From Clytia hemisphaerica (taxonomy: Eukaryota > Cnidaria > Hydrozoa > Leptothecata > Clytiidae): a stretch of 64,000 nt of DNA. Of the stretch, positions 29,646 through 59,239 are shown in pieces. A program made the translations under genes and the position numbers. Position 1 is the first letter of the stretch. Each line of letters starts with the position of its first letter. The stretch spans positions 1 to 64,000 of the forward strand of contig CACVBU010001230.1 in the NCBI GenBank assembly GCA_902728285.1, given 5' to 3'. The notes beneath the pieces are model-generated. The model saw only the letters and a program-made list of their open reading frames with translations. It made no database searches and was not told the origin of the DNA.

Positions 29646-30690
29646 CTTACTTACTTACTTACTGCACGGTTTAACGTCCGTTGTTCCCAGCAGCTGGGGT
29701 TGGACGCCTTCCTCTCTTGATGGCCGTACGCCATGCAATGCGATCGTTTGTCAGGTCGATGTTGACATTGAGGGACTTTATGTCCGCATTGATATTGTCC
29801 GACCATCTCTTTTTTGGTCTGCCAACATATTTCCCTTGCACTTCATGAGTGAGCATCTTTTTTTGCCAACAGTCGTCGTGCATACGCTGCACATGACCGA
29901 ACCAACGAAGTCTACCTTGGGAAACTAAGTCTTCAATACATGGAATACCAAGTCTTTCTCTAAGCTGGGTCATCGAAATCCTATCAGCCAGACGAGTTGA
30001 ACAGATCCAACGAACCATCGCGTTGTCATTTCGAACAAGCCTGCTACAGTCATCAACCGTGACTGCCCAGGTCGGGCTTCCATGAAGCAAAACACCCCTT
30101 ACAGCTGAAGTAAAGACACGACCACGACATTGCAATGGGATGCTCTTATTAGTCAAAATTGGCAACAACTGTCTAAATTTATTCCACGCAGACTTCACCC
30201 TTGAGGTAATTGCATCAAAACAGCCTCCATTGTCCCCAATCATATCACCTAGGTAACAGAATGTGGGTACTACCTCAAGATCTGAACCGTCTATAGAAAA
30301 CACAGGGGAGGGAGGTACAACAAAAGGATTTAGACAAGCAGGACAAACATAGTTAAAATTTTCCCTTAAACGCCCTTTTATGCCCGAGCATCGTTTGTGA
30401 ATGTAGTTTTTACATTGGCGGCATAAAATAGAGTTGCTCCCTACTCCTTTGTAGCAGACACCACAAGGCCATTTACTTGTCTTTTGCCTTTCCCTCAGAC
30501 CATGTTTGCAATGCATTACTTTGGTCTTCCGAGTGTTCACACGTAAACCCTTTGACTCAATGGCCTGTTTCCACTGGGTTAGCTTGAACAAAAGCTCCTC
30601 TTTAGATTCTGCAATAATAACCAAATCATCTGCGTATAGTAATTCCCAAGGACAACCGGTACGAAATGACCGAGAGAGAGCTTCCATGAC
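29646..30690 (-). mobile_element. 5'-truncated LINE with (GTAA)n tail
   Basis: On the minus strand the open frame 30687-29671 is followed by a (GTAA)n tail at about 29646-29663. Homology starts at 'EALSRSFRTG', just before the YADD motif, so most of the reverse transcriptase is missing. That is the usual result of incomplete target-primed reverse transcription. Confidence 0.85.
29671..30687 (-). pseudogene. LINE reverse transcriptase C-terminal fragment with PHD-like finger, 338 aa
   Basis: Begins just before the catalytic YADD (residues about 19-22, LLYADDLVIIAES). A C4HC3 cluster follows (CGVC, CRQC, H, CSG, CPAC at about 74-116), then the C-terminal region with GRLRWFGHVQRM (about 265) and GRPKKRW (about 292), typical of LINE polymerases in marine invertebrates. 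The frame is open throughout but lacks the endonuclease and the fingers/palm motifs, so it is a dead fragment. Confidence 0.85.
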
Positions 30691-32744: not shown

Positions 32745-32777
32745 GTTCCAATAACCCAGAATTAATTCCAATACATA

Positions 32778-35700
32778 ATGGGTATGTATGCTGTGCTTTT
32801 CATTGTTAAATATTTACTTCACATTTACTACTATACTAATTTTAAGAGAACCTTTGGTTTGTTTTTGAGCCCAGTGTTATTAGCAAATTGTGTTACATTG
32901 GATCTTTTCAAATTCCAGAGAACGAATTTTGAAGCCTTTTCCCCTTTTTATGGTAGATAAATTAGTTTAATAGTCTTTATTGTTCAACAGGTACATAGAA
33001 CAACAAACAAACCTAGTTTTTACCTCATTCTCTATTTATTACAGGTGACAGTGAAGCTGCCAAACTACAGAAACATCTCAATTTATTACGCCAAGAATAT
33101 GTTAAATTACAAAATAAAACGCTTGATCTGGAACAAAAATTAGCAGCGGTGTCAGCTACTTCTGGAAATGTCTCTGAGGACACCTATGCATCACAGCTGT
33201 TGAAAACATCAAACGATTTACACGATAAAGAAACCTTCACGTAAATATTCAATTTAGTAGGGTTCCCCCTTAGCTTCCCGCTACATCTTAGGACTAGACC
33301 AAACTGATTTGATTCAAAAGTACAATGTATTTAAAACAAGGAGGACCCAAATAAGGCTGGTGAAAATTTTCTTGACAATTTGAGGTTTATAGGCAAAACT
33401 GTACGATAAGACAAGGACTAGAAAACAGCTTGAAAATCTGCCCTTATTTTCCCTTACAGTCACTATTAGGTAAAATACATTGTTCAATATTCTTTACTGA
33501 TTATTAGCATATGTTTTGACTGTCCTTTGCCAATTATGTGTTTGATCCAGTTGTGAGCTTTGCCTATAATGACTCTCCCTTTACAATTTTAAGTCTGTGC
33601 AATTTAATCTCTTGAGGGTTATAAAAGAAATCATTTCTAACCTTTCAGAATCAACTCAAACCAATGTAATAAAAAAATATAATAAAATGATGAATGCTCC
33701 ATCTGGCTCCATGGCTGCCCAAATTTCGGTGCCATTCAAGTTGTACAAACTGGAAAAAATTGTTTGCTCATTCTGCTTTGTTTCTACGTCTGCTTTTATA
33801 AGATCAAATAAAATCTTTAAACTTTATTTTTTTATCAATATTTGTAGGGACATTACAGTTTCTTTTTCTGGAAAGAAAGTCAGGGCACATAGAGTGATTC
33901 TGGCAGCAAGAAGTAAAAAATGGTGCACTGGAGATTTAGCTGACCAAAATGAAATTGAGCTGGAAGGTATCACTGACCTTTATATAACCCTGGACCAAGC
34001 AATATCTGCCATCTTTGATTGGAGTTTTTTTAGAATTGGTACCCAAAGAGAAGCCATTGCAATGCTGAAAATTAACGTCTAACGCCGCTACATCACCAAA
34101 AGAATTTGAGGGAAAGTAGACCTAACGCTCTCGATGCATTTACACCGCTATCGAGTAGTGCCGACATTAGGGTACCAATTTTCAAAAAACTCCGATCAAA
34201 GATTTTGCTTGGCTGGGATTGAGAAGCTTTGTCCAGGGTATATAAAGGTCAGTGGAAGGTATCCATCATATATCGTTCATATTTGAAATTCATTTGTTTA
34301 TAGCATACTACCACAAATTTTGCTATGAGGCAGTTATTTAATCTTGCAGTGTTGCCATTTGTAGATAAAAGCTCTGAATTTATACCTCGGAATCCCTAGT
34401 TAATAAAGTGTAATGAGGTGGTAGGGTAAAATTCACGTGCAAGAGAAATATCCATACGCAGACAAGTGTTTCATCCTTCCAAGGACTCATCAGTGAAGCC
34501 CCAGTAAACCAGCATAGAATGCTGCTGTCACCAGAGTGCTCAAAATACTGGGTGTTGAGCTTTGCATAATCGTTTGTGATGAGAGATATAAGCATGAGCA
34601 TGAGCCAGAATTATTATCTTAGTGTATCTTGGGCCAATTCCCAAGCTGAAGTTACATGTATGTCCATTTTTGCTGTTGACATAACTTCTTTTTATTACAT
34701 AGTCCATTCAATTATGGACATAAGATGAATTTATCTCAAGAGCAAAAATTTATGGACTGGGGAGCCAAAAAACAAAAAAATAAAAAATTCCAAAAATTGG
34801 ACATAGCTCCTTTTTATTCTACAGCAACGAAATGAGACCTCTAATTTATCATTATTGAATTTTATTTTTAATTAGAAAAGTGACGAGTCTCAAATAACTT
34901 TGAATATTTAAGTAGTACAGTTGCTTTTGAATTTCGAAAAGTAATCTCACTCATTCTGTCTCACTCCTAGAAGCCAGTGTAGAAGTGGGTACAGCGCTCA
35001 TGAAATGGGTGTACACTGACAAAGCAGATATAAGGACAGATGAGTCGTTCATCATGGATCTGGTGCGCGTGGCAAATAGATACTCTCTCGGTGGACTAAG
35101 GAACAGGTATTTATTATATAAATTGTCCTAATAATTTCTATAAATATTATCTCTTACAATCTTATATCGGACGGAGGATCGAGACAAAAATACCATTAGA
35201 TGCTAGAAATTTCCTCCCTTACAATCTTTATATATATCTGTTCTTCCTAGGCGTGAGGGGATCCAAAAATAATTTAAGTCTCTTGTTACACTGTGTACAC
35301 TTTCTCAGGGTGATCATACTGAAATTTTTACCACCATGAATACCATTTCTTTTAAAACCGTCATGCCTCTATTGTTTTCAGGTTTAAGAAGATCATAATT
35401 TTAGCCTAAGAACTTTTGCCTAACTGACGTACCTTAAGGGAAGAAATTTTCGCGAGAAGAAATTTTCGCGGAAGAAATTTTCGCGGAAGAAATTTTCGCG
35501 GAATTTAATTTCGCGAATTGGGGCGTAATTCGCGAAATTAAATTCCGCGAAACACACCAAAATTGTTAAATCGCGAAATTAAATTCCGCGAATTTCGATT
35601 TTTTTTCTTTTTCTTTTATTTTGTTGTTTTTGACCAGGTGTTACCAAAAAAGATCGACACAATTGATTTAAGCATTATAACGTATATCTTTTATCAAATA

Positions 35701-39335: not shown

Positions 39336-39590
39336 GTAAGTACTATATCTTTTCACCTCCGTTTACCTTTAGGTATGTATTAATTCTTTTTATATTTGAA
39401 ATTCTTAGATCAAAAATGATGATGGGTGGATTAAAATCTTTTCTCTGCTTTGTCTTTTTGCCCGTTTTAAGGGGTAGATTAAAGTATATAAAGTCGGTGT
39501 AAAAGGATTTTAGACAATGGCAATTTTAGTCAAAAACTTTTTTTGGTTATTGCAATCGGGTTCAAATTTATCACTGATCAAATGCATAGA

Positions 39591-39816
39591 TTTATAAAGC
39601 CGAATGGGCTAGATATCGTGCTTTTGCTGAAAAGTGTGCCGGGGTTAGGTGGGAAATCCTACTTAAGTCACGTGACATTACAATATAATTTCAGCGCTTG
39701 ACCAATCAGAACCTTCGCGGGTTTTCGAAAACAATATCAGCAATATTTTTTGCAATATTCACTTTTTTGCTTAGAAGAGCTTAAAGCACGACATCTAGCC
39801 CTTCGGGCTTTATAAA
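39591..39816. mobile_element. MITE with TTTATAAAGCCC termini
   Basis: Imperfect terminal inverted repeats of about 40 bp: TTTATAAAGCCGAATGGGCT on the left and AGCCCTTCGGGCTTTATAAA on the right, extending to matching GTGCTTT segments inside. Located in ANKFY1 intron 9. Confidence 0.75.
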
Positions 39817-39867
39817 TATATGGTCAAATGATGTTGAAATATCACTTATCTGTGTGTGTCAATTCAA

Positions 39868-40290
39868 TAGGGACCTTTAGCATCTAGGACGGCGACTTGA
39901 ATGAGGACGTAAAGTAAATCTTAAAATCAAATGGCAAATTTTATCCGATTTTACATAGATTTAATATCGCATGGAAAAATTTGAGTTTAGGAAAGTTTTT
40001 ATAAACAATGACGTTATAATTCTCGAGGGATTCATACAATTTAAAACTATTGTGCTTTTCTTTTACCGCCTTCGTCCCAAAGACTACATCAAAAAAGAAT
40101 TTTCAAGTCGTCTTGAGATTTGAAAACGTCTATTAATTACCCTATTAAAATTCACTATTCTCATGAGAAAATTGATATGAAAAGAATAGAACCTAGCTGC
40201 AATCTTTATATTAATCCCCTAGGGGCTTTCTTTTTATTCAATCCTGCCGTACATTTTTAAAGTCGCCGTCCTCAATGCTAAAGGTCCCTA
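39868..40290. mobile_element. MITE with TAGGGACCTTTAGCAT termini
   Basis: The left end TAGGGACCTTTAGCAT and the right end ATGCTAAAGGTCCCTA are perfectly complementary, and similarity extends through AGGACGGCGACTT. It is about 423 bp with no coding capacity, in ANKFY1 intron 9, and probably has a TA target. Confidence 0.85.
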
Positions 40291-42046
40291 ATGGCCCCGC
40301 ACAGCGGACGTTATATGACTAGAGCCTATAATCCCTAGTTTGATTCGCAAACCTCTATATATATATCTCCTATATAGGTTTGCTTAATAGTGTACGGCTT
40401 GCCTTCCCGCTATGGTGGCTCTATGGTGGCCGATTTTACTTTTTTTGGCGAGTTACGGAAAGGGACGAGTTTTATATGGCGAGTCAGAAAATAATAAAGA
40501 TAAAAAAGAGACAAAGTCACAAAAATATGTTCTGTCTTCACTTTGACTTATTTTATAACAGTAAGAGAGTCTGGATAAAAAAAATTATGAAAAAGTGTAA
40601 AACAGTGTATTTTATAAAAAAACCTAGTTCTTTGAGTTCTATAAACATCAGCTTTCTGACTTCAATCTCACATTGTACAGGAAGTCAGAGAAAAGATCAA
40701 AACAAAGAATCCATAAAAAAGAAAGCACTCTGTTCTAAAAATACAACTCCTCTTGCATCAATCTCAACAATCCTCTCGCATCCCTATAATAGTATTGAAT
40801 AAGGTTTTTTTCTCTTGTTGAGGTAAAGAAACTATACAAAAAAATTGAAAGAAGAAACCATTGTAAAATGGGTTTTGAGATCAGAGAAAATTTGTACCTT
40901 GAAACCGTTAAGAATGTAGAAAATATTAGATGTATCACCAAGACATCTAAGAACTACCAACTAAAATCATCTCCTCTAATATTTGAGTCTGACTGAGTCT
41001 TTCGGGTCTGCGAAAAGTCAAAACAAAAACTCAATCTCTCCAAAATTCTCGAAACCGACAAAAATATGAGAAATATTTAATCACAGCTGCACGGTTCATG
41101 CTTTTCGGAATGATATACCAAGAAGGCCAAACTAGAGGTATGAACCCTTGTCCAGAGTCAGTTTTTGATGGCTAAAACTTGAGAAAAAACTTACAAAAAA
41201 TTGACTTTAAAACTCTTTTAAAGTAGCTTTGAAAACTTAAGAAATCTTCCAGAAAACCAAAGAATCTTGCTCTCTAACAAAGAACAAAGTAAATTTGACA
41301 TACCTGTTGCTTTGTTCAAGATCTTGTAACCAAAACAATCCAAAACATCAGCCAAAATCAAAACAAACATATAATCTTAATTTGAATCATTATTTCATGC
41401 AACTGAGACACAACTTTCCCTTGATGCATTCCATAGATACAACTGAACATAAATTTACACATACAAAGCTTTTAACTCTAAAATTATAACTTCCAAAAAC
41501 CAAAATAAACTCCAAAAAAGAGAAAATCTCTACTTCGCTTCGGCAGCCATGTTGAATTCAAAATGTGAACAATCAAGCAAGCCTGTATCAAACTAGCACG
41601 TACATTTTTAATATCGCTATCAATAATGAAAATATTTGTTATTAGTTTGTTACAGACTATGAAAAATCTAAATCGTAACGGGGAGAGTTTCTTCACAAAT
41701 TCATCATCATAAGCACTCGCCAGCTAAAAAGGGTTGTTCGCCGAAATTCGGCGAGAAGCGGCATATTCTGGGAAAGAGGATCTACCATGTTTTAAGCAGC
41801 CTCTATAAGAAACTTTTTTCGCTAGAAGATGAGCATCCATGCAAATTATCACATGATTTGGTACAGGCTAGCAGTAGATCCATGTTTCGTTGGTCTTCGA
41901 AATTATCACATGGTTTGGTACAGGCTAGATAGATCCATGTTTCGTTGGTCTTCAAGAACAAGCGTTAAAACGATAAATTAGATCGATGCTGGACTAAATA
42001 CCCCTTAAAATACGAAGAGAAACCGAAAATAGGTTAGAAAAATAAG
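40291..42046. other. Intron 9 sequence without a recognised gene
   Basis: AT-rich non-coding sequence. Around 41865-41955 an imperfect direct repeat (ATTATCACATG-TTTGGTACAGGCTAG, then ATCCATGTTTCGTTGGTCTTC) occurs twice. The open frame at 40380-40802 has no recognisable features and low-complexity Lys/Ser content, so I do not call it. Confidence 0.5.
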
Positions 42047-42083
42047 TTTATTGAGAATAATTTTAGATTTTTATAAATTTATT
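42047..42083 (-). promoter_or_regulatory. Candidate polyadenylation signals of the antisense repeat gene
   Basis: On the minus strand AATAAA occurs at 42052-42047 and again at 42083-42078, about 480-510 bases after the stop codon of the minus-strand gene at 42560. Confidence 0.5.
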
Positions 42084-42559
42084 CAAAGAAAATAATAGTA
42101 GTGGATATGACAAGAAAAATTATATACAATATACACAGCAATCGTATCAATATGCAAAGAAACAAACAAAGAAACTTTGTTTCGACATTCTAAACTCACT
42201 GAGGTACCATCAAAAGACAAAGCCACTAGCAGGGATCAGGCAATATTCATACAATTTGAATCTCATGCTCTTAATATTGGAGGCTACTTAAATATACCAA
42301 CAGCAAGGTGGCCAAAACTTTTTTGAGGCGGATATAAGATGTTGATGGTTTCATAAGTCCTTTCCACCTTTTGCCGATGAGATATTTAATTAGTCGAGCA
42401 ATGATATAAGCATAAGGTCCAAAGGGCATGAATAGTTCTGTTTCCCTGCTAGTCTCTTTTACTTAATTGATGATCTTCAGAGAGAATAGAATATAGATAC
42501 AAAATTTTTTTCGTTCCTTTCTTCACATTTCGATACAATTGCTTTTGAAAACTTTAATT

Positions 42560-45500
42560 TTAGTAGAATCTTTCAAAAAAGTCGTTCAATAAGGTATACC
42601 ACATGGTACGGCGTGGTTTCTGATTTTGCCGTGCAGATTCGACGGTATCTTTGTTGGATGATGATGACCCAGACTCGGCATTATGGTCATTAGAGGGAGT
42701 ATCATTCAAATGGTCAGGTTGGGCCTGGTTAACATCACAAGCTGATGCTACGTGCTCCATGTGGGCAGATTTTGTTTGCTCCACATCACAGACTGGTACT
42801 ACGTCCTCCATGTGGGCAGATTTGGTCTGCTGGACATTGCTAACTGATGATACGTCCTCCATGTGGGCAGATTTGGTCTGCTGGACATCGCTAACTGATG
42901 ATACGTCCTCCATGTGGGCAGATTTGGTCTGCTGGACATTACAGACTGGTGCTACGTCCTCCTTTTGGGCAGATTTGGTTTGCTCCACATCACAGACTGG
43001 TACTACGTGCTCCATGTGGGCAGATTTGGTCTGCTGGACATTGCTAACTGATGATACGTGCTCCATGTGGGCAGATTTGGTCTGCTGGACATTGCTAACT
43101 GATGATACGTGCTCCATGTGGGCGGATATGGTTTGCTCCACATCACAGACTGGTGCTACGTCCTCCATGTGGGCAGATTGGGTCTGCTGGACATTGCTAA
43201 CTGATGATACGTGCTCCATGTGGGCAGATTTGGTTTCTTCCATATCGCAGACTGGTGCTACGTCCTCCATGTGGGCCGATTTGGTCTGCTGGACATTGCT
43301 AACTGATGGTACGTCCTCCATGTGGGCAGATTTGGTTTCTTCCACATCGCAGACTGGTGCTACGTCCTCCATGTGGGCAGATTTGGTATGCTGAACATTG
43401 CTAACTGATGGTACGTCCTCCATGTGGGCAGATTTGGTCTGCTGGACATTGCTAACTGATGATACGTGCTCCATGTGGGCAGATTTGGTTTCTTCCACAT
43501 CGCAGACTGGTGCTACGTCCTCCATTTGGGCAGATTTGGTCTGCTGGATATTGCTAACTGATGGTACGTCCTCCATGTGGGCAGATTTGGTCTGCTGGAC
43601 ATTGCTAACTGATGATACGTGCTCCATGTGGGCAGATTTGGTTTCTTCCACATCGCAGACTGGTGCTACGTCCTCCATGTGGGCAGATTTTGTTTCTTCC
43701 ACATTGCTAACTGATGGTACGTCCTCCATGTGGGCAGATTTGGTTTGCTCCACATCACAGACTGGTGCTACGTGCTCCATTTGGGCAGATTTGGTCTGCT
43801 GGACATTGCTAGCTGATGATACGTCCTCCATGTGGGCAGATTTGGTCTGCTGGACATTGCTAACTGATGATACGTCCTCCATGTGGGCAGATTTGGTCTG
43901 CTGGACATTGCTAACTGATGATACGTGCTCCATGTGGGCAGATTTGGTTTGCTCCACATCACAGACTGGTGCTACGTCCTCCATGTGGGCAGATTTGGTT
44001 TGCTCCACATCACTAACTGATGATACGTCCTCCATGTGGGCAGATTTGGTTTGCTCCACATCACAGACTGGTGCTACGTGCTCCATGTGGACAGATTCGG
44101 TTTGCTCCACATCACAGACTGATGATACGTCCTCCATGTGGGCAGATTTGGTTTGCTCCACATCACAGACTGGTGCTACGTGCTCCATGTGGGCAGATTT
44201 GGTCTGCTGGACATTGCTAACTGAAGATACGTCCTCCATGTGGGCAGATTTGGTCTGCTGGACATTGCTAACTAATGATACGTCCTCCATATGGGCAGAT
44301 TTGGTCTGCTGGACATTGCTAACTGATGATACGTGCTCCATGTGGGCAGATTTGGTCTGCTGGACATTGCTAACTGATGATACGTGTTCAACGTGTTCAG
44401 GTTGTGTCTGTTGACTAGCGGAGGATGGAAAAGTTACAGACATCTTGCTACAAAGGAAAAGATAACGAATCTTGTCATTTAAAACAAAAGATAAACCCAC
44501 TACTCTACCGGGGAAAAACGTTTGGGTTCTAATTAGTCAGGGAGCAGATGTAGCAAAAACAAGTGCGAGAAGATTAGAAAATTTTTTTGAAAAAGTGAAA
44601 ATACATTGAGTAAAAAAACATTCCTCAAGCAAAGAGACTTACTCTTTCGACTGTTTTTATGTTTATGATAAATAGAACGTTTTCTATCTTATAATTAAAA
44701 ATTTAAAATTTTCTCGAAATCAAATTTGCTATTTTTTCGTTTACAAAAGCACTGTGAGGTTTGCAGGATATCGCTTCATAAGAAAGTAGTTTTAAATTTA
44801 TCTGACTTAGCATGAAGACACTGCCTAAAATATGGTCCTTTTATTCCCGTATGAAACCTTTAATCCTAATTTTGTCGCTTTTCCCAGACCAAAATGTTAA
44901 ACTCGTCACAATTCGAAAATTTACAATTTAGTCACTCAACCGGACTAAACTCTACAACAAAAATATTTCACTATCCCGAAAATAAATCTTCTAATTCGAT
45001 TTTTAAAATCATTACACTGCTGTTTAATCTAATTTTGAAACTCAACTGAATAGATGCATTTCACAGTCGAAATGAATTGGCAATCAGGACTGGTTACGCT
45101 CTAGTAACTACTTACGGTTAGCTTGACGCAAAAATCTTCAAAATATTTTAAAATTTTGGGCCAATAGAAAATCGTCATTAACGCGCAGTGGTCTTGATTA
45201 CCCATTACAGTTTGCGATTGTGAAATAACCTTTTGAAAGGTTGTTTATGTTCGACAACAATTAATCGAGTCAAGTCATAATGGTAGACTTAGATGTGAAC
45301 GAGTTCAAAAAAGAATCACATACCTTTTGACAAGCGCTCTTTCTCTTAATTGGTGTTTAGCTTCCTCCAATAAGAAAATCAATTTCGAGCATTCCGTGCT
45401 CAACTTATCAATGTGTTGTGATTGTGAGGCGATAGTTAGATTCCTCGCTTCTATCTCAGCCGTAAAGACATTAGACATTGTTGTCTTAAGGCTTATCACT

Positions 45501-48367
45501 TCGCCAGCCAATAATGCCTTTTCATCCTTGAGTTTCTCGATGTGACATCGATATTCGTCGAACTATAAAAGAATGTAACATAATGCACCTATCAGACCTT
45601 AGCGGAGTGGTCGGCTTTTTAGGACTGGTAATGAACTTACGAGGAACATTTATTTTCGGCGCGGTTTTCGTCTAACAGGCTAGGCACAGTTACATAGTTC
45701 GCACCCCCCCCTTTATAAAGGGGGGGGGGGGGGTAGCGATGTTCAGAAAATCTCAGAAAGGGGGGGGGGGGTAAGAAGAGAATTTTTTCTAGAAGGGGGG
45801 AAGTTTTCAGAAAGGGGGGGTTCATCTAGAAAGGGGGGGGTAAGATGTCAGTGGTATGTTTTTTTTGTGTTTTCCCAAATTAGAAGTTTTATTTTTAATT
45901 TACAATGCAACGTCTTCTTTATTAATTGTTTAGTATGTTTGAATCAAATTTTAAAAGGGGGAAGAACCCAGGGTAGGGGGGTAGCTCTAGGGTAGGGGGG
46001 GGGGGGTAGTGACCCCCTTCCGAACTATGCTTAGGCTGCAGTTAAAATCAAACCAAGCAAATTCCCCCCAAAACTCTAGAGGCATTTTCCCGAGTCTTTG
46101 CGTTAGAGTGCAAACTATTTTTAGCATTCGTATAGCTTAACTGTCGAGGTTACTTTATCGCTTCAATGCAAGGGTATCTTAAATTTTCACAAGAGCACTC
46201 CTACACTTGTGTTTCATCTTTCCGCAGACACGTGTTTATCCTTCCTAGAACACATCAGGCCGCGGTAAGCGAGCGTGTTGCCACTAGAGTGCTCGAAGTT
46301 AAAAAATATTTCGGGTGCACCAAAAAAAAACAACAGGTATGTCGAGATATTGTGAGCCTCAGGATTTAATTTTTTTGTTCATTCTTTTTTAATCGTTTAG
46401 AGGATGCTCTAACTTGAATTTTGAGCTATCATACATTAGGTTTGAAAAAAGTAGTTCGAATAATATTTCAAATGAACTGACTTTGATTTAATGTTGATAA
46501 TGCCTGATTGGCTAGAGAAGTGCAATGCAATTTTCCTACTAAGGAAGTCAAGTTATTAAACAATATTCCTGATTTTGAGAAAAAAACTATAGATTTAAAA
46601 AAAGTTAAAGCTACTCTTGTCTCCTGAATGGACGCCCCCCAGCTAATTGTTAAGAGAAAAAAATCCACCCCCCCCCCCTCCGCTCTTTATTAAGACCCCT
46701 TCCGGTAATTAAATTCGAATAATTTGATATTTTATCACAGTGTAGATAGACCTAAAGCTTGTTCAAACTTTTGCCTTTTTCGTGTTCATTTGTTAAAGTT
46801 TCTTTTTTGTTGTTGAAAATGATATCAGTTTAAAAAAATTTTGTCTCCCCCCCACTTATTAGAATTTAGAAAATTTTCCTACCCCCTGCTTATTCGGACC
46901 CCCCTTCGTCTATTCGAGAGACAAGAGTACTTTTAAATATCTAGTAAAACTAGATTGCACGAGTCAGGCCATTCGCGAAATTTTTTATATTTCGTGGAAT
47001 CAACAATATTCATTTTTTTCACGACCATTTGATTTCGCGAATTTTAACAAATTTAATCAAACAAACAGGTTTTATAATGTGGAATTGATCATGACAGGTT
47101 ACTTGAGTTTCTGTTTGCCAAATTTCCTATCACAAACATGGGTTGAAGTTACTTTCACTTGCCAAGTGAGCACAACCCACTCGAGTGAGAACCCCGGACA
47201 ACAATCTAGTTTTATATCTACATACACTACTGCGCCATGTATACATTTACACTAATCTACAGGACTGAGAAATAACGAAAACTATTTCTATTTCTATTTC
47301 TATTCGGTTGAGCAGGCTTTCGGCAGGAGGCTTTAGAGGCCTATTCTCGCAACGATAGAAGCTTACTTATGAGCGTCCCGTCAGCACTTTGAACTGACTA
47401 CCCAATTCCCCTCACAAAGGAACGTTCACTTGCCACGTAAACTGCCGTGAGTGGGAATCGAACCCTGGCCTCCTGTACAAAAGCCAAGGTCGACTACCAC
47501 TTTACCACGGCAAGCCTTAACAAAAGACTTCCTTGTTCTATCAATGTATTTTGATTTAAGTTGTGCGCTGAGTACATGAATAACACAGAAACTGAAAACC
47601 ACTTCTAAGCTTCAAGATCTTCTTTGGGTAACGAAGGCTCATTGTGCTACAAGTGAGGGGACACTTCAAATATAATTATAAGTTGCCAGCTTCTAAAGCA
47701 CTAGTAAAGTGATAGAATCCCGAAAAGAATAATTATTGTAATTCTCGATGTGATCTTATTGAAAATTTAAGGAATAAAAAAATCTTACCATGGTATCAGC
47801 ATGTTGTTTTATACGTTGGATTTGTTCGTCTTTTTCAGACACCACCCTTTCGTGTTCTTCAAAGGGAACGCCATTGGGCGCCGAGGGCGGTTCAGCACCG
47901 GATGATTTGTTCCCCTCCATCACCACAACGCATAAATGTTTCAAGATGGTGTGCGTGCTATCGACTGAGCGTTTTAAAGAATCGATGTCTTTCCTCATAG
48001 CAGGAATGTCAGATCTCTCACCCTGAAGAACTGACAACGACTGTAGAAGCTGGGCGGTTGAAGAATTGTCGTAGGTGGATTTTGTTAAATCTTGAGCTAA
48101 GCGCTCGATTGATGTCTGTCGGCTGCTGAGTGATCCACATGATGTGATGTGTGGATTTTGAATGTTCCCTTGGGAGCTCTTCTCGAGTTTCTCCAGATGG
48201 CGTAATATGATTTCGTGTTGGTTTGGACTGATGCCAGAGTCCATGTTGATGACACTGCGGGAAGCATCAATCATTTTTTGTTTGTTGGTCTTCAGACCTT
48301 GCGGGTGTTGTTCAGTGTTCTCATATTTTCCCGTTGAGCTGGTTTTGTGAGTGGAGGAAGCAGACAT
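42560..48367 (-). CDS. Uncharacterised three-exon gene nested antisense in ANKFY1 intron 9, 901-aa repeat protein
   Basis: I do not recognise this gene. Exons on the minus strand: 48367-47789, 45562-45324 and 44447-42560. The borders are GTAAGATT, GTATGTGATT donors and TTTTATAG, CTTTGTAG acceptors. The three exons total 2706 nt in one frame. Exon 1 (193 aa, MSASSTHKTS) is Ser/Thr-rich and polar with helical stretches (LEKLEKSSQ, DSLKRSVDS). Exon 2 adds a coiled-coil-like segment (HIEKLKDEKALL, LTIASQSQHIDKL, LLEEAKHQL). Exon 3 carries 33 tandem 17-residue repeats and a polar tail ending TLLNDFFERFY. No signal peptide or membrane segment is visible. The coherent splicing and a repeat register kept in a single frame support a real gene; function is unknown. 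The start is the first in-frame ATG of exon 1. Confidence 0.78.
42710..44392 (-). repeat. 51-bp coding minisatellite: 33 tandem 17-residue repeats
   Basis: Thirty-three 51-bp units fill exon 3 of the antisense gene. Two main types alternate: MEHVSSVSNVQQTKSAH (no Cys) and MEDVAPVCDVEQTKSAH (one Cys). The set SSVSNVQQ, PSVSNVQQ, APVCDVEE recurs as a three-unit, 153-bp higher-order block (units 16-18 and 19-21). The plus strand is also open across the array in at least one frame, with a break at 43395-43397. Confidence 0.95.
44448..45323. other. Intron 2 of the antisense gene
   Basis: AT-rich sequence between exon 3 and exon 2 of the minus-strand gene. I see no repeats or coding segments with support. 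Confidence 0.6.
45693..46029. mobile_element. MITE-like element with CATAGTTCG termini and long C/G runs
   Basis: The left end CATAGTTCG (45693-45701) is complementary to the right end CGAACTATG (46021-46029). Inside are several runs of 7-13 G or C separated by AGAAAATCTCAG, TTTTTTCTAGAA and similar modules. The truncated copy at 24643 shares the left half. G runs of this kind could form quadruplexes. Confidence 0.75.
46612..46929. mobile_element. MITE with TACTCTTGTCTC termini, C-rich
   Basis: The left end TACTCTTGTCTC and right end GAGACAAGAGTA are complementary, and similarity extends to GAATGGACG / CGTCTATTC. Internal C runs are joined by short AT-rich linkers. It is probably flanked by a TA target and lies in intron 1 of the antisense gene. 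Confidence 0.75.
47283..47516 (-). mobile_element. tRNA-derived SINE (Lys-like head), (ATAGAA)n tail
   Basis: Read on the minus strand, the head starts GGCTTGCCGTGG. It has an A-box-like TGGTAAAGTGG (47508-47498) and a B box GGTTCGATTCC (47464-47454), with acceptor arms TGCCGTG/CACGGCA. The anticodon loop reads CTTTTGT. A tRNA-unrelated body and a tail of (AGAAAT)n follow. Similar flanks TAACGAAAAC and TTAACAAAAGAC suggest an imperfect target duplication. The T stem pairs poorly, so it is not a functional tRNA gene. Confidence 0.75.
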
Positions 48368-48499
48368 TTTGTTGTGTTGTAATGTTAAAAAAGCGGTCTT
48401 ATGGTTCGTGCCTCGTTGTTTAAAATGTGTTATATTGAACGCTGGAATTCTTCGATGAAGTTTGAGCGTTTACTTCGAATGAAAATGTTGCGTTAAGAC

Positions 48500-48620
48500 T
48501 GACGTCTTGTTTCGTTGAGTTGTTTGTAGAAAAGGAAGTTTTCAAAGCTGTTGTACGAATTTCAAAAGTTTTTTGACGTCAAAGTAGATAAAACTAGTTC
48601 AAAGTAGTAAATTGACGTCA
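48500..48620 (-). promoter_or_regulatory. CRE-like palindromes upstream of the antisense gene
   Basis: TGACGTCA occurs at 48574-48581 and 48613-48620, and the near match TGACGTCT at 48500-48507, about 130-250 bp upstream of the ATG at 48367. TGACGTCA is the classic CREB/ATF site. A functional role is inference. Confidence 0.45.
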
Positions 48621-48639
48621 AATATACAATGTAACTAAT

Positions 48640-49433
48640 AAGCCGTCAAAAGCTTGTCTTGTTGCTATGATACGTCAAATATATTTATCTAACAAAGATA
48701 TCATGACTACTGGGCGGTTCAAGGGTGCCAAATCACACCCTTCCGCCTACACTGTTCAATCATTTTCCACTGCTAGATTCTCAACCTTATCCGCATTTTT
48801 TTTTTTCAATTTTCTTTTTCTTTTTTAATTTGAGATGAACGGCTGCCATTTAACCAAACAATCCTATTATTACAAACAGAATGAACTGATTCCAAAAATG
48901 GTTTTTTTGTTTTAGAAAATTATTTTCCGATGTTCTTTTAGACTTAAATCTTTTCTTAGTCGAACAAAAGAGGAAACGGATTTCGCCACCTCTTGAGCAT
49001 TTGTCTATGCACAGACCCATTACAGCTAATTTCCAAATTTATTGCCATAGAGGGTCTCCTGTTGTTATTGTCTTTTCTCATTTGAGATTTTTCAAATCGA
49101 CCGCTGCGATGGAGTGTTTGTGAGAGAGGGGAGACGACGAGAAAAGTGTTGCTATTTATAAATCATACTTCATCGCAGAGGTCTCCGTGCAGGAATTTTT
49201 TTATCAAACAGACAATGCACACAGAGTGTACTACGAAGTGATAAACGTAAGATACACTCTGGTACAGAGTACTGGAGCATACATTTGATAAACTTATTGT
49301 GTCATTTCTGCTTTGTCAGCATATGAAACGATACGTCTCTTTTATATATCATCAAAACACACAATGGTATGTGTGTAAATGTACCATATTTATTCTTTCA
49401 GCATCGGTCTAGAGATACGCTCCCACTGACCTT
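48640..49433. other. Intron 9 spacer between the antisense gene and the TE nest
   Basis: No gene seen. At about 48713-48750 an imperfect hairpin GGCGGTTCAAGGGTG / CACCCTTCCGCC is present. The segment 49278-49330 (GGAGCATACATTTGATAAAC to GCTTTGTCAGCATA) recurs directly at 58897-58950 on the other side of the nest, with a few differences. Confidence 0.5.
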
Positions 49434-49701
49434 TATATATCCCTGGACCAAACTATATCCGCCATCTTTAATCGGAGTTTTTTTTTGGAATTGGTACCCG
49501 TGATGAAGCCATTGCAATGTTAGAAATTAACGTTAAACGGCGCTACATCATCAAAAGTATTTGAGGGAAAGTAGACCTAGCGCTCTCGATGCGGTTACAC
49601 CGCTATTGAGTAGTGCGGCCATTAGGGTACCACTGTTCAAAAAACTCCTTTTTGCTTGATTTTTGGACCTACCCCGGTGGAGGTCCTATAAATTAACCTC
49701 T

Positions 49702-49729
49702 GTTCGTTCGTTCGTTCGTTCGTTCGTTA
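49702..49729. repeat. (GTTC)n microsatellite
   Basis: Seven tandem GTTC tetranucleotides. Confidence 0.9.
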
Positions 49730-49734
49730 CTAGC

Positions 49735-51120
49735 TTTTCTCGGGATTAGCTCATTAGTTTTTCCTAATTTTTGGCACAAAGATGCAAATTGGTAATGCCC
49801 AAAATGTGACGGAGCCCGATTTTCGAAAAAAATTCATTTCCGGCCGAAAAAGCCGGAAATATGCCGGAAAAACCGGTTTTTTGGCATTTTCTCGAGATTT
49901 CATCATTAGTTTTTTCTGATTTTTTGCACAAAGATGCGTATTAGCAATGCCTAAAACATGGATTAGTCCGATTTTTGAGAAAAATTCTATTCCGGCTGAA
50001 AATGCCGGAAATATCCCGGAAATCGCCGTTTTTGCAGATTTTCATTGGACTTTTTCCTTATATTTCGTTGTTTTTCACACAAAAACATTATTTGTAGCAA
50101 TGCCCACCATCAAGCATGGTTTAATTGTCAATAAAAGTGATTTTTGAAGCCGGAACTTTCTAAAAATCGCCGGAACAGCCTATTTTTCTTTTTCGCCGGA
50201 AAAACGGTATTTCTTGAATTTCTCGAGCTGTACTTTATATTTTTTCATGAAATTTTGCACACTGATGCAAAATGGCAATACCTAAAATATGACAGAGCCT
50301 GATTTTCAATTAACGTACTTTTCCGGCCGAAAATGCCAGAAATATGCTGGAAAAACTGTTTTTTTGGCATTTTCTCGAGATTTCATCAATAGTTTTCTCT
50401 GATTTTTTGCACAAAGATGCGTATTAGCAATCGCCAAAACATGGCCGAGTCCGATTTGTGAGAAAAATTCATTTCCGGCCGAAAATGCCGGAAATATGCC
50501 GGAAATCGCCGTTTTTGCAGATTTTCATTTGACTTTTTCCTTATATTTCGTTGTTTTTTCACACAAAAACATTATTTGTAGCAATGCCCACCATCAAGCA
50601 TGGTTTAATTGCCAATAAAAGTGATTTTTGAAGCCGGAACTTTCTAAAAATCGCCGGAACAGCCTATTTTCGCCGGAAAAACGGTATTTCTTGAATTTCT
50701 CGAGCTGTACTTTATAAATTTTCATGAAATTTTGCACACTGATGCAAAATGACAATACCTAAAATGTGACGGAGCCCGATTTTCGAAAAATATCTTTTCC
50801 CGGCCGAAAATGCCAGAAATATGCCGGAAAACCGTTTTTTTTTACATTTTCTCGAATTTTCATCTTTAGCTTTTTCTGATTTTTTGCAGAAAGATGCGTA
50901 TTTGCAATGCTCAAAACATGGCCGAGTTCGATTTTTGAGAAAAATTTTTTTCCGGTTGAAAATGCCGGAAATCGCCGTCTTTGCAGATTTTCATTATATG
51001 TTTTCCTTGTATTTCTATGTTCTTCACACAAAAACATTATTGATAACAATGCTCACCATCAAGCATGATTCAATTGTCAATAAAACTGATTTTTGCGACC
51101 AGAACTTTCTATTAATTTTT
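49735..51120. repeat. Satellite-like block, about 480-bp unit, three copies
   Basis: The landmark TTTTGGCACAAAGATG/TTTTGCACACTGATGC appears at about 49770, 50255 and 50732, giving periods near 484 and 477 bp. Each unit contains shorter related modules with GCCGGAAATATGCCGG and GCACAAAGATGCGTAT. Open frames here are short and inconsistent. Confidence 0.8.
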
Positions 51121-51884
51121 CCCTACAACCCTTCCTTCTCCCCCCATCAACAATCAATGATGAATTTATTGCGTTATGCATTTTCGCTAAACGATATATT
51201 TTCTGACTGATTTTTTTCTCCTCGCATTGCTATCTAAAGTCTGTCCAGATATAATTGGCAGTGGAAACAAGAATGCCTGTAACTTTTGATAGTCAAATAT
51301 AATTATGGAAATTTTTTTTGCTTGTTTTAGAGAGTCAAAGGTGCTGTATTTGAATGTATTTTTGGTTGAAAAATTCGCGATTTTTAGCGGTTAAATTTGC
51401 GATTGCAAAAATTGAGCTTTTTTTCTACTTATGCTATAACGTTCATTTTTACACCAGTGGTAGTTCAACCTTAGGTTAAGAAGTTTGTTAAATTTCAAGG
51501 CAAACAAAAAAGTCCTTCAGAAGATGTGGGACCCGAAATACCCCTTGGTAGCACTTTTCTGTGAAATATCAAATTTCCAACTTATTACTAAAAACGGGGG
51601 TTATGTTATCTTTTTTGAACAGTGCAATTAAAAGTTGGAAAATGTTAAGTGTTGGTGCATTGGTATTATTGCTATTGGTATCATTTATTATTTCGAAACG
51701 AAGTGAAATCACAGTATAATTGTTAATTTCGCTTAGCGAAAGTATTACGATAGCCTTTCTGCGGCGGCGGTGTCATCGGAAAAAAAATTAGAAAACGAAA
51801 GTGCTTGATACGGTGGACGAACTCACTAAATTTAATTTACAAATTACACGCTCGTATAACCACGGACGATTTTCGCGGGTTTTC

Positions 51885-52127
51885 TTTGGATTACGTCATA
51901 TATCTTTGTGTCTTTAGCTCCACAGTTTTGATTTTTTCTTTATTTTCTTATAAGCATATACTTTATAAGAATCAAATCAATAACTCTTGATAGACTATAA
52001 TATACCTTTCGGTAATTAGTTCCTACGAAGTAAACAAGGGATGGCGCACAATATGAGCTTACTTATTTTTCTTATAAGCATATACTTTATAAGAATCAAA
52101 TCAATAACTGTTAATAGACGGTGATAT
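51885..52127. repeat. 124-bp tandem array, left part (two units, cut by Copia)
   Basis: Units contain TTCTTATAAGCATATACT followed by TTATAAGAA. They match those at 57297-58065. The Copia element lies between the two parts. Confidence 0.85.
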
Positions 52128-52402
52128 TGATACTTTTACCTTTAGACTATCAATAAACTAACTAAATAATAGCTGTGGAGGAGCTTGGAATTATACAAGT
52201 GAAATTGTACATTGTTTGTTTTATGGTTTCATTGTTGGAGTTATTTATATTGAAGTCGTGTTATATTGTTTTATGGTTAAACGTTACTCGTGTTGTGGAG
52301 TTAATAATCGTTAATTGTTTTATTGGAGAAATATTGCTTATTGTTTTGTTGGAGATATTGTTTTATGGTTACCAACAACAAGGTAACTTACTTCAATTTT
52401 CA
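52128..52402 (+). repeat. 5' LTR of the Copia element
   Basis: Starts TGATACT and ends ATTTTCA immediately before the primer binding site. The open frame inside it is fortuitous. Confidence 0.95.
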
Positions 52403-52417
52403 TGGTAGCAGAGAAAA

Positions 52418-55400
52418 ATGGCAACATCAGCGTCATATAATAAAGCTCCTCCTCTGCTATCCCAAAGTAAGAACTATGAGGATTGGAAGAAATTAATTGG
52501 AATTTGGACGGAGCTTACAACATTAGACAAAAAGAAGCAAGGACCGTCCCTTGTACTCACTCTTGACGGGAAATCACAAGAAGCTGCATTGGAACTTTCG
52601 AGAGAGCAGATATCTTCTGAAAATGGAGTTCAAAACATCATCAATAGGCTTGATAAGATCTATGCAAAGGATAAGTTGACAGAAAAGTTTGATGCCATTG
52701 AGAAATTTGAGACTTATAGACGAACAAAAGAGAAGAAGATACGAGATTTTCTAACAGAATTTGACAAAAGATATTATAAGATAAAGAACTATATTAACTA
52801 CCCAGATGATCTGCTAGCATATCGGCTTCTGAAAGCTGCCAATCTCGACAATTCTCATGAAAGACTCATAAAAGCAACAATAACGGATTTAGTTTACGAA
52901 GATGTGAGACAAAAGCTAATAAAAGTTTTTGCAGAAGAGTCTATCGAAGGAGATTTAGAAAGCAGTATGTCTTCTGTAAAAATCAAGTCAGAGCCTGCCT
53001 TTTATACAAATGAGGCCCACCCAGACGATTACCAACCAACATCATCAGATCAGATGAAGAAGGTGTGTATTATGTTAAAGTGTAAACGTAATTACAACCA
53101 AAGATTTTCCTCATCAAAATTCAATAAAAAAGGAAATAATTGGCGCCAGGAGAAACCTGCTGTTCGAACTAAGGCAGATTATTCGAGAAAACCTGGCAAA
53201 AATCCACTTGACAAGAATGGCCGTGTTTCTAGATGTGTGATATGTGAAAGCGTATACCATTGGCAACAAGACTGCCCAGAGAAACAAAATGATACGTACA
53301 TGGTACATGAAATCGTCCTTCATAATGAAAGCAACAAACCAGGTCAACTTAAACATCTAGTATCAGAAACTTGGAATTGTGGCTTGCTCGATTGTGGTGC
53401 CAGTAAGACGGTTTGTGGAGATGTTTGGCTTGAACAATATGTCAACTCTTTATCTGATGAAGAAAAGAGAGAGGTAAAGCATCATCACAGTAAAAGCCTA
53501 TATCGCTTCGGAGACGGAGAACAAGTCCAGGCTTGTGGAAGAGTCTCAATCCCTGCTATTATCGGCAACACAAAGGTCAAGATAAACACAGACGTCATAC
53601 CAAAGGACTTACCCTTGTTACTATCAAAATCATTCATGAAAAGAGCTGACATGATCCTGGATTTTCAGAATGACAGTGCAAATGCATTGGGGGAAACTGT
53701 TCACCTAGCAACAACTTCAAGTGGACATTATACCATTCCTCTGACCAAACCACGTCAAATAATTGCTTCAATAGACAAGCCTTTTGAATGCAATTTTGTT
53801 TTCATTTCGAAAGAGGACAAAAACATGTCCTCAATTGCTGAAAAACTTCACCGGCAGTTTGCTCACCCATCTCTCAACCAAATCTTGTCTCTTATCAATA
53901 AAGCAGGGGCACCATGGAGTAACAACAAGGAGTTGATATCAGAAATCAAAAGAGTAGACAAGGAATGTACAACATGCCAAATCTACAGAAGATCACCACC
54001 TCGTCCTGTTGTTGGATTACCCATGGCATCAAAATTTCTTGAAACAGTTGCCATGGACTTGAAATTCTACGATAAGAAAATAATTCTCCATCTTATCGAT
54101 ATGTGTACTCGCTTGTCAGCTGCAACGACTATAAAGGATAAAAATCCGACCACAGTCATTGAGGCAATACTAAAAACGTGGATATCCGTCTATGGCTCAT
54201 GTGAGAAGTTCCTCGTGGATAATGGAGGTGAGTTTGCAAATGAGGAATTAATCAATCTAGCAGAACAGTTTGGAATCACGATAAAGACTACTGCGGCTGA
54301 ATCTCCCTGGTCAAATGGCATTGTAGAAAGACATAATCAAACACTTTCCAACATGCTTGATAAAGTACTAAACGATACAAAGTGCAGCATTAACACTGCC
54401 CTTTATTGGTGTGTAAATGCAAAGAATTCACTGCATAACGCACATGGATTTACCCCATACCAATTATCCATTGGAACGAATCCACAGTTGCCTTCACTAA
54501 TAGATGATAAACCACCAGCTTTATCAGGGAAACCAGCGACACAAATGATGAAAGAAAATCTTGAAGTACTTCACAAAGCAAGAGAAGCCTTTATTGCAAG
54601 CGAACACTCAGAGAGAATACGTCGCGCTTTAGCCCACAACATTAGGACTTCAGGAGAAATCAAGTACCTTACAGGAGATCGTGTATACTACAAGAGAAAT
54701 GATAGCAACGAATGGAAGGGTCCTGGAACTGTGCTTGGTCAGGACGGTCAGCAAATTCTAGTCAAACATGGGAGTTACTATGTTTGTGTTCATCCTTGTC
54801 GTGCTAAATTGGTACATGAAAACGACAAACCTATTCATTCAGAGGAGAAAACGGAAACAGAAACGGAAACGACGACCAGTACCACTGAAGAAAGACTCCC
54901 AAGATTAAACATTCCAAACGTGAGCCATCAATCATCAGAAGAATCAGAATCAGACGTAGAAGATTCTCTAACACCCATCAGTAATGATCCACCAACTGCA
55001 CCTACCCAGCAATTACAAACTCAATCCACTTCAGTTGAGACACACAACCCTCCTCAAAAGGAACAACTTAAACTGAAACCGAATCTTTGTCTCAAGTATA
55101 AAGACAACGATGGAGAGTGGCAAAAGGCCCGAATCCTTTCAAGGGCAGGAAAAGTTGGAGGAAAGCATGAAGGCTGGTTTAATGTAGAGACAGAAACTGG
55201 GATGAAGAGATCAATAAACTTTGCAAAGATCAAAGACATTGAAATTGATGAAAGTCCCGAAGAAGTTACTCTGATTGCCAACAATGATGAAATAGTCAGA
55301 GCAAAATCAAAGGAGCTGCAATCATGGATTGACAACTCAGTATACACTGAAGTACCTGATCAAGGTCAGAAAACCATCAGCCTGAGATGGGTGGTAACAC

Positions 55401-56759
55401 CAAAATTAATTGATGGACAACCTTCAGTCAAGGCAAGGCTTGTGGCCCGTGGATTCGAAGAAATACAAAACTTCAAGACAGATAGTCCTACCTGTTCAAA
55501 GGAAGGATTACGATTAGCATTGACGATTATTGCATCAAACAATTGGACACTCAACTCCCTAGATGTCAAAACTGCCTTCCTTCAAGGGAAGGAAATTGAT
55601 CGAGAAGTGTTTGTTCAACCACCAAAGGAAGCCAACACCAAGTACCTTTGGAGACTTTCCAAAACCGTATACGGCCTTGCTGACGCAAGCCGTAGCTGGT
55701 ATTTAAAATTAAGAAGTGAGCTTATCAAACTTGGTGGAAAGCCCATCGATTTAGATCAAGGGATTTTCATCTGGTCATCTAATGCATCATTAATTGGAAT
55801 ATTAGTGTGCTTGTGTTGATGATGTGATTTGGGCAGGAAGCACTACCTTCACAAATACTATATCAAAGCTAAAGGGCATCTTCAGGACCAGCAGCGAACA
55901 CGTGCAACACTTCAAATACATTGGCATTAATCTCAACCAACACGAGGATGGAACTATTACCATCAGTCAAAATGATTACGTCACAGAATTGGAACCAATC
56001 ACTCTAGAATCAGAGAGAATGAAGTGCGTAAACGATGATCCAATCAATGAAATTGAAAGGACTAAATTGAGGCAAACACTTGGTAAGCTCAATTGGTTGG
56101 CATGTATGTCAAGACCAGAAATCAGCTTCACGGTAAGCGATTTGTCATCAAGAACAAGAACAGCCACAATATCTGACATCAAACTTGTTAACAAGACAAT
56201 AAAGTTCGTAAAAGCTCACACCTGTCACATGACGGTGCCAAAACTGAATTTGAATAGCTTGAGCATCAAGGTATTCACTGACGCCAGCTTTAACAACATT
56301 GAAGGTGGTCAAAGTCAAGGTGGCTACATTGTCTTCTTAACTGATGGCTCAGGAAAATCATCACCGATTTCCTGGAGCTCAAACAAGGTTCGTCGAGTAG
56401 TCCGATCAACTCTTGCAGCCGAGACACTAGCTTCTGTAGATGGTGCAGACGCAGCGTTTTTCTTGGCAAAAATGATTAAAGAATTCTTGTCCAAGACACC
56501 AGAAGTTGTCTGCCTAACTGATAGCAGATCACTCTTTGAATGTGCCGGTTCAACAAAGGCTGTGACTGACAGACGACTCCGTGTAGAGATAAATGCTCTA
56601 CGTCAAATGATCAATACTGACGAAATCATCCTGCAATGGATTAGCGGAAGTCATCAACTGGCCAACGTTCTGACAAAGAAAGGCGCATCCCCCTTTTCCC
56701 TAATGGAAGTACTTGAATCAGGGGATTCGACATCGGTCGTAATTAATGGTGAACAATAA
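52418..56759 (+). pseudogene. Copia gag-pol polyprotein with a single frameshift in reverse transcriptase
   Basis: The first frame (52418-55819) encodes 1133 residues. Gag comes first (NYEDWKKLIGIW), then a zinc knuckle C273-C276-H281-C286. The aspartic protease has LDCGAS with D325. The integrase has an HHCC finger (HRQFAHP, CTTC) and catalytic D547, D601 and E637 with D35E spacing. The reverse transcriptase starts around WVVTPKL and has LDVKTAFLQG with D1049. The frame shifts by one base around 55809-55814, immediately before the catalytic VDD. The second frame runs to 56759 with the RNase H (FTDASF, LAAETLA, LTDSRS) and ends near the LTKKGAS region. Otherwise it is full length for this superfamily. 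Confidence 0.9.
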
Positions 56760-57021
56760 CCACATCACCATTGTTCGTGTTAAAACAAAAACAAAAAACA
56801 AAAAAAAAACAACGGGTAGAAGTTATCACGCTATAAGTGTTAGACATTTGATACGATAGACATTTGAGATTGAAGAGCCATCCGAGATTGAAGAGACATT
56901 CACTTTCAGGAAACAGCAAACCGTGAGACTGTGGCCTGATATTTTGTGAATGTAATTGACATGGTTCAAGAATTACTATCGGTTCAAGGACAATCAAAGA
57001 AAAGAAGAAAAGAAAGCAGAT

Positions 57022-57296
57022 TGATACTTTTACCTTTAGACTATCAATAAACTAACTAAATAATAGCTGTGGAGGAGCTTGGAATTATACAAGTGAAATT
57101 GTACATTGTTTGTTTTATGGTTTCATTGTTGGAGTTATTTATATTGAAGTCGTGTTATATTGTTTTATGGTTAAACGTTACTCGTGTTGTGGAGTTAATA
57201 ATCGTTAATTGTTTTATTGGAGAAATATTGCTTATTGTTTTGTTGGAGATATTGTTTTATGGTTACCAACAACAAGGTAACTTACTTCGATTTTCA
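57022..57296 (+). repeat. 3' LTR of the Copia element
   Basis: Nearly identical to the 5' LTR and followed by the GATAT target duplication at 57297-57301. Confidence 0.95.
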
Positions 57297-58065
57297 GATA
57301 TACCTTTCGGTAATTAGTTCTTACAAAGTAAACAAAGGATGGCGCACAATATGAGCATATTTATTTTTCTTATAAGCATATACTTTATAAGAATCAAATC
57401 AATAACTCTTGATAGACGGTGATATACATTTCGGTAATTAGTTCTTACAAAGTAAACAAAGTATGGCGCACATTATGAGCATATTCATTTTTCTTATAAG
57501 CATTTACTTTATAAGAATCAAATCAGTAACTCTTGATAGACGGTGATATAGCTTTCGGTAATTAGTTCTTACAAAGTAAACAAGGGATGGCGCACAATAT
57601 GAGCTTACTTATTTTTCTTATAAGCATATACTTTATAAGAATCAAATCAATAGCTCTTGATAGACGGTGATATACCTTTCGGTAACTAGTTCTTACAAAG
57701 TAAACAAGGGATGGCGCACAATATGAGCATATTTATTTTTCTTATAAGCATTTACTTTATAAGAATCAAATCAATAACTCTTTATAGACGGTAATATACC
57801 TTTCGGTAATTAGTTCTTACAAAGTAAACAAGGGATGGCGCACAATATGAGCTTACTTATTTTTCTTATAAGCATATACTTTATAAGAATCAAATCAATA
57901 ACTCTTGTTAGACGGTGATATACTTTTCGGTAATTAGTTCTTATAAAGTATACAAGGGACGGTGCATAATATGAGATTATTTATTTTTCTTATAAGCATT
58001 TACTTTATAAGAATCAAATCAATAACTTTTGATAGACGGTGATATTACCTTTGTTTATTAGTTCT
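57297..58065. repeat. 124-bp tandem array, right part (about six units)
   Basis: Unit starts (GATATACCTTTCGG-like) at 57297, 57421, 57545, 57669, about 57793, 57917 and a degenerate one at 58041 give a strict 124-bp period. Every unit carries the 9-bp inverted repeat TTCTTATAA / TTATAAGAA and ATGGCGCACAATATGAG. Confidence 0.93.
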
Positions 58066-58978
58066 TAAAAATTAAACAACAGTTGTTCTTCAATTGGTCT
58101 CTTTTTTTTAGCGATTTTAAGCCTCGTTGTTATTTAAAAAATTGTTTCATCAAGGCTCGATGTAAAGTAGATTTCAAATTGGCTTCAATCTCTACTTCTT
58201 GTTTTTCCTATGTAGTTTAAATTCTAGGCGAAATTTTCGACTTTAAGTCGTCTTGTTTTTATTGAAAAGATAAGCATGAACTTATATTGCCTTTTTTTTA
58301 TTTTTAAGTCTAAAGAACTTTGCTAATTCCCAAAACACTAAACACAGTTTGGCTATAAGGTCATTAAAGAGATCGTAAAATGTGTTATGATCGAAAAACT
58401 GTTTTATCAATCATATCACTACCCCCGTTTTAAGTAATAAGTTGGAGATTTGATCTTTCACAGAAAAGTGCTACCAAGGGGTATTTCGGGTCCCATATCT
58501 TCAGAAGGACTTTTCTGTCTGCCTTGAAATTTAACAAACTTCTTAACCTAAGGTTGAACTACCACTGGTGTAAAAATGATCGTTATAGCATAAGTAGAAA
58601 AAAAGCTCAATTTTTGCAATCGCAAATTTAATCGCTTAAAATCGCGAATTTTTCAACCAAAAATACATTCAAATATAGCGCTTTTGATTCTCTAAAACAG
58701 GCAAAAAAAAATTCCATAATTATATTTGACTATCAAAACTTACAGGCATTCTTGTTTCCACTGCCAATTATATCTGGACAGACTTTAACTTTCATCATCA
58801 GGTAGGTCCATTCAGCATCTAGCTTGTTTCATTTTACTTGGCCGGGATTGAGAAACTTGGTCCAGGATATATAAAGGTCAGTGTACGCTCCACGGGAGCA
58901 TAAATTTGATAAAATTATTGTGTCTAATCTGCTTTGTCAGCATAATATGCGTTCCTGCTTTCTTTCATAAAAAACGAT

Positions 58979-59192
58979 GTAAGTAAGTAAGTCTATCCAT
59001 CGGGTGACTGTCGGCGGAGCAGGGAGAGAGGGAGAGCGCCACACCTACTCCACAGCTCACAATAGCTTGGATGCTCGAATCAGATCAGCCAATATAAGCT
59101 ACTCATTCAATGAGTTGGCAGTGACTGGGGATCGAACCCACAATCTTTGTATTATAAGCCGAATGCTCTACCGACTGAGCCACCCGGTCACT
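58979..59192 (-). mobile_element. tRNA-derived SINE next to ANKFY1 exon 10
   Basis: Read on the minus strand it has a tRNA head with A box TGGCTCAGTCGG (59182-59171) and B box GGTTCGATCCC (59138-59128). The acceptor arms AGTGAC/GTCACT are paired, and the anticodon loop reads CTTATAA. A body of about 130 bp follows, then a (CTTA)n tail at 58979-58992. The head ends 47 bp before the exon 10 acceptor. Confidence 0.85.
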
Positions 59193-59239
59193 AAAAACAA
59201 TCTACCTGAGTGTAAATGTCCCAACTTTTCTTCGTTCAG

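Follow-up and report, generated by a model that had tools for sequence, protein, structure and literature searches.

The window, by which is meant the whole 64,000-nucleotide stretch of Clytia hemisphaerica DNA that was analysed, contains an ANKFY1-like gene on the plus strand and, within one of its introns, a repeat-protein gene on the minus strand. The ANKFY1-like exons occur on both sides of the repeat-protein gene and are collinear with human ANKFY1. The left of the two exons concerned has its last base at 39335, followed by GTAAGT, and the right one starts at 59240, after TTCGTTCAG; the match to the human protein runs across the 19.9-kb intron between them without a missing piece. Taken alone against the human protein, the left flanking exon matches weakly (E 0.49) and the right one with an E of 7e-05. 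Since the ANKFY1-like exons end at 39335 and resume at 59240 with the protein continuous, the nested gene (42560-48367) lies wholly inside the intron. A sequence-only reading of this DNA had likewise placed it wholly inside an ANKFY1 intron on the other strand; the host is ANKFY1-like. The ANKFY1-like exons, together with the retrotransposons in the window, point to animal DNA.

The exons of the nested gene, three in number, join at GT-AG borders. These borders are canonical at both introns (ATG/GTAAGA and TTATAG/TTCG at the first, AAAAG/GTATGT and TTTGTAG/CAAGAT at the second), and the joined frame of 579+239+1888 = 2706 nt specifies 901 residues and a stop. The open frame of exon 2 starts at the acceptor and ends 6 codons past codon 79. 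The three-exon structure and its coordinates, as given in the sequence-only reading, proved exact to the base, and the Ser/Thr-rich N-terminus (residues 1-193) and polar C-terminus (the end of exon 3) that it described are both present.

Table 1. Positions in the window of the nested gene, its putative signals and the intron that holds it
Feature	Position	Strand	Remarks
Exon 1	47789..48367	-	codons 1-193; Ser/Thr 22%; donor GTAAGA
Intron 1	45563..47788	-	2226 bp
Exon 2	45324..45562	-	79 full codons + 2 nt; Leu/Glu/Lys-rich, without proline; possible coiled coil
Exon 2 splice signals	45324..45562	-	acceptor TTATAG, donor GTATGT
Intron 2	44448..45323	-	876 bp
Exon 3	42560..44447	-	linker, 33 repeats of 17 residues, polar C-terminus, stop; acceptor CTTTGTAG
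51-bp tandem array	42742..44385	-	mosaic; the unit lineages are (i) SSVSNVQQ and (ii) APVCDVEQ or VEE
Two perfect TGACGTCA sites	48574-48581, 48613-48620	.	207 and 246 bp upstream of ATG; possible promoter elements
Two AATAAA signals	starting 42083 and 42052 (42047..42083)	-	~480 and ~510 bp after stop
ANKFY1-like intron holding the entire nested gene	39336..59239	+	borders AAAGA/GTAAGT and TTCGTTCAG/TATTGAC; 19.9 kb

Other features of the window

Mobile elements and tandem arrays are present elsewhere in the window. One is a large inverted duplication (2843-11573 and 11889-20743) in which a BEL/Pao-type retrotransposon and tandem arrays of 99 bp and 42 bp are found in opposite orientation, the arms being separated by about 0.3 kb. 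The longest piece that the inverted copies share, 7464 bp, is 97.6% identical between them, and in the second BEL/Pao copy the frame is broken into pieces. A LINE-type element is present as two direct copies (21058-24513 and 25038-28461) with 95.9% identity over 3.5 kb. By eye, the zinc-finger-like peptide NCQYTHPK is common to the frame 1754-2926 and to the frame starting at 24996. On the minus strand, a reverse-transcriptase frame at 29674-30738 also matches the PHD finger, at 24.2 bits against the Pfam cut-off of 24.

Also within the 19.9-kb ANKFY1 intron is a copia-type element (52409-56759, plus strand) that encodes integrase and reverse transcriptase. The peptides at 52166-52405 and 57060-57314 are almost identical, which suggests that long terminal repeats are paired around it. 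Two tRNA-like stretches, both on the minus strand, were also seen: 59116-59189, which is over the Rfam gathering score, and 47443-47511, which is under it, lies in intron 1 of the nested gene and is perhaps a SINE head. ARAGORN called neither as a tRNA; both may be heads of tRNA-derived SINEs. Further along the host gene, three tandem 56-bp units (60041-60207, plus strand) span an acceptor-like TTTTAG and the first codons of the ANKFY1-like exon 60181-60348. With the acceptor-like TTTTAG spanned by the unit, several tandem acceptors may therefore exist there.

Coding signal against chance

The stop-to-stop frame that holds exon 1 extends for 237 codons. None of 300 simulations (order-1 Markov sequences of 20 kb each) equalled it, the longest frame among them being 212. 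A finder of two-exon chains, using simple donor and acceptor rules, returned 818 nt on the real strand, which is exons 1 and 2, and 100 Markov sequences length-matched to the region reached at most 385 nt. On the opposite strand of the same region the finder gave 508 nt. Twelve other real searches, covering both strands of 6 stretches of which two overlap, gave 0 in ten instances, 198 nt in one and 550 nt in another, the last coming from 28600-33000 minus, a stretch with a reverse-transcriptase frame.

Codon usage was compared with counts from the host, which comprise 613 codons from ANKFY1-like exons whose edges are approximate. On these counts the gene's own frame scores 0.183 in exon 1 (against -0.05 and -0.04 in the other sense frames), 0.107 in exon 2 (against -0.09 and -0.05) and 0.273 in the repeats (against -0.23 and 0.02). 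Base shuffles reached the score of exon 1 in 0 of 2000 trials and that of exon 2 in 42 of 2000; for exon 2, none of 540 overlapping intron windows did so. None of 230 such windows reached the exon 1 score either, though this comparison partly measures composition because exon 1 has 46% G+C and the intron 36%, and because the wrong sense frames of exon 1 likewise beat all 230 windows. What little of exon 3 lies outside the repeats does not reach a coding score in its own frame on the ANKFY1 counts (-0.06), and an antisense frame there has 0.128. Counts taken from transposon codons did not distinguish the sense frames of exon 1 (0.108, 0.115 and 0.096, with 304 of 2000 shuffles reaching the score). 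With them, another frame beats the gene's own in exon 2 (0.135 against 0.028) and in the repeats (0.367 against 0.311), and intron windows match or exceed exon 2 in 8 of 540 cases.

The repeat array

Tandem Repeats Finder reports the array as 32.2 copies of 51 bp with 85% matches and 0% indels. The 33 repeats of 17 residues counted in the sequence-only reading correspond to 32 clean units, all precisely 51 bp long and 23 of them distinct, and a degenerate 33rd. There is no regular super-unit: at none of the lags from 1 to 12 units did the real order stand out from shuffled order. The unit length is a multiple of three, the frame is kept and the sense frame of the array has 0 stops. However, a stop-free 51-bp unit stays open when repeated, and on the antisense side too there is a frame through the array with just one stop, so that the long open frame of exon 3 counts for little on its own.

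Of 33 inferred changes between units, 13 are synonymous where 7.8 are expected (p 0.033) and none is nonsense where 1.6 are expected (p 0.19), the joint probability being 0.009. Pairwise pN/pS among distinct units is 0.43 in the gene's sense frame, the lowest of the six frames; it is 0.73 and 4.0 in the other sense frames and 0.49, 0.68 and 4.5 in the antisense frames, the antisense value of 0.49 being near that of the sense frame. Support for purifying selection on the repeat units is modest.

These features bear on the possibility that the gene is decayed or non-functional, with a minisatellite that is open by chance and exons 1 and 2 as relics no longer under selection. Even in the absence of selection, a stop-free 51-bp unit would leave both strands with long open frames; 20 of the 33 inferred changes between units are nonsynonymous, and the part of exon 3 outside the repeats fails to score as coding with ANKFY1 codons. 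Such decay is nevertheless unlikely. Exons 1 and 2, which are outside the repeats, are intact with canonical borders and have their own frame scored as coding with ANKFY1 codons, and the units themselves show synonymous enrichment with nonsense changes absent.

It is quite improbable that the array is coding only in some other model. Exon 3 begins SKMSV, with an ATG just inside (44443-44441) at which a separate transcript could start its coding, and plus-strand frames of 339 and 256 codons are present. Yet the borders that link exons 1 and 2 to exon 3 are good and the frame is kept across them, and the plus frame is broken by a stop, has a pN/pS of 0.68 and scores 0.094 with ANKFY1 codons against 0.273 for the gene's frame. 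Judged on its sequence, the three-exon gene is probably real.

Searches for relatives

Nothing in Pfam or NCBIfam exceeded its curated cut-off with residues 1-292, 205 residues from exon 3 or the C-terminal 65 residues, for which there were 10, 13 and 0 weak matches, respectively. The sequence-only reading had found the repeat unfamiliar and had proposed a profile search with exons 1 and 2; within these collections the outcome agrees with it. The best Pfam match, TRAPPC9-Trs120, was rejected at 18.8 bits against a curated cut-off of 24.7 and is confined to residues 166-245. What several coiled-coil families (TRAPPC9-Trs120, the Sas-6 C-terminal coiled coil, HIP1 and others) have in common with the protein is a Leu/Glu/Lys-rich stretch near exon 2, but all of these matches are below their curated cut-offs, and we think that composition explains them. 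Hemolysin BL L1, the lone PDB hit of residues 1-292 (E 0.42), and the related Bacillus_HBL family in Pfam (14 bits where the cut-off is 29.1; E 0.047) were taken as chance helical matches.

Nine repeat units had no match in PDB. The unit EDVSSVSNVQQTKSAHM and its variants were likewise unmatched over cut-off in Pfam and NCBIfam. In IMG/VR there were 11 pattern matches to residues 1-292, none confirmed, and none to the repeats and C-terminus; GTDB genomes gave 21 pattern matches, again with none confirmed, and phage and plasmid collections gave no match at E up to 1. All the collections searched are bacterial or viral, or consist of curated families and solved structures, and are no test of the novelty of an animal gene. 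In the library of papers searched, three fragments of the 17-residue unit had no occurrence, and a search for 17-residue or 51-bp repeats gave none that was relevant as far as titles and the opening parts of abstracts tell.

Lineage-restricted tandem-repeat proteins encoded by minisatellites constitute a general class. The nested gene is like them in its in-frame units of exact length, its mosaic of unit types, its polar acidic composition and its degenerate end unit. The kinds to which it probably belongs, nested gene and lineage-restricted repeat protein, are known ones.

BEL/Pao, copia and LINE-type elements are plentiful in the window, and the gene could itself stem from a transposable element, either as its cargo or by descent. 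That origin is very improbable. No transposon domain scored above cut-off and no transposon family is among the 10, 13 and 0 weak matches, and within the window residues 1-292 and the C-terminal 48 residues each occur just once. The flanks of the gene (39336-42559 and 48368-52400) share only short matches (longest 26 bp, best E 0.098) and no long repeat, which speaks against long terminal repeats; short ones may be present.

The predicted protein

A coiled coil had also been proposed. In its favour are the Leu/Glu/Lys-rich composition and the sub-threshold matches to coiled-coil families; the heptad score is not significant, as at best 0.88 of a/d positions in residues 161-275 are hydrophobic, a value reached by 14% of 300 shuffles (p 0.14). 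A coiled coil around exon 2 is thus only suggested. The repeat arm, with 561 residues, a net charge of about -59, 14 cysteines and 44 histidines, is probably disordered and polyanionic, to judge from its composition. The C-terminal tail is basic and then aromatic (KPRRTMWYTLLNDFFERFY). By eye there is no signal peptide, and hence the protein is probably intracellular.

The simplest reading, we infer, is an oligomer with multivalent arms that serves as a scaffold or spacer. The gene would be transcribed from its own minus-strand promoter inside the ANKFY1 intron and the transcript spliced from three exons. The protein would oligomerise via its helical segment, at approximately residues 165-272, and the oligomer, displaying the acidic, probably disordered arm of 17-residue units, would work as a scaffold or spacer of multivalent kind. 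The array would gain or lose units when in-frame 51-bp units are exchanged unequally. Given that the gene is real, this mechanism is put forward tentatively.

Transcription signals and the host gene

Perfect TGACGTCA sites, which we take to be CREB/ATF-type, number 3 in the window against 0.67 expected, a count reached in 2 of 100 shuffles, and two of the 3 are just upstream of the gene, the pair being a post-hoc lead. With a looser pattern there are 7 in the window against 3.3 expected (reached by 6 of the shuffles). On sequence grounds the pair and the downstream AATAAA would fit an independent transcription unit. An RFX X-box candidate at 48661, with 2 mismatches, was dropped: at up to 3 mismatches there are 24 in the window and 24.2 expected. 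About 1.4 kb upstream of the ATG of the nested gene there is a tandem array of 2.8 copies of a 483-bp unit (49770-51111).

In Drosophila melanogaster about 6% of genes are intronic, and about 85% of these are protein-coding, according to PMC3786989. The 2mit gene, within timeless2 in the same account, is likewise protein-coding, inside a host intron and in opposite orientation. Both host and nested gene differ from those here, and the Clytia gene is known from sequence. In human, the effects that a nested gene can have on its host include intron retention, exonization and cryptic polyadenylation, as described in PMC3192792. By analogy, interference of the nested gene with ANKFY1 is possible. 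That the transcript is chiefly an antisense RNA tuning ANKFY1 splicing or polyadenylation, its protein being incidental, would suit the human cases and a gene wholly within an intron on the other strand, but has only a slight chance of being right given the coding signals in exons 1 and 2 and in the repeats. It would be a long shot to propose a CREB/ATF-driven, lineage-specific scaffold family with a unique 17-residue unit, the induction of which shuts or re-splices endosomal ANKFY1 to give one locus with two products.

A nested repeat gene that is genuine, protein-coding and probably lineage-restricted, with a multivalent scaffold role, is as a whole the best explanation, and is held with moderate confidence. 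If expressed, it would be an orphan repeat-protein gene whose transcription could affect the conserved ANKFY1, and its unit number could mark in-frame repeat turnover. Otherwise, it would add to the lineage-restricted repeat genes that annotation can easily miss.
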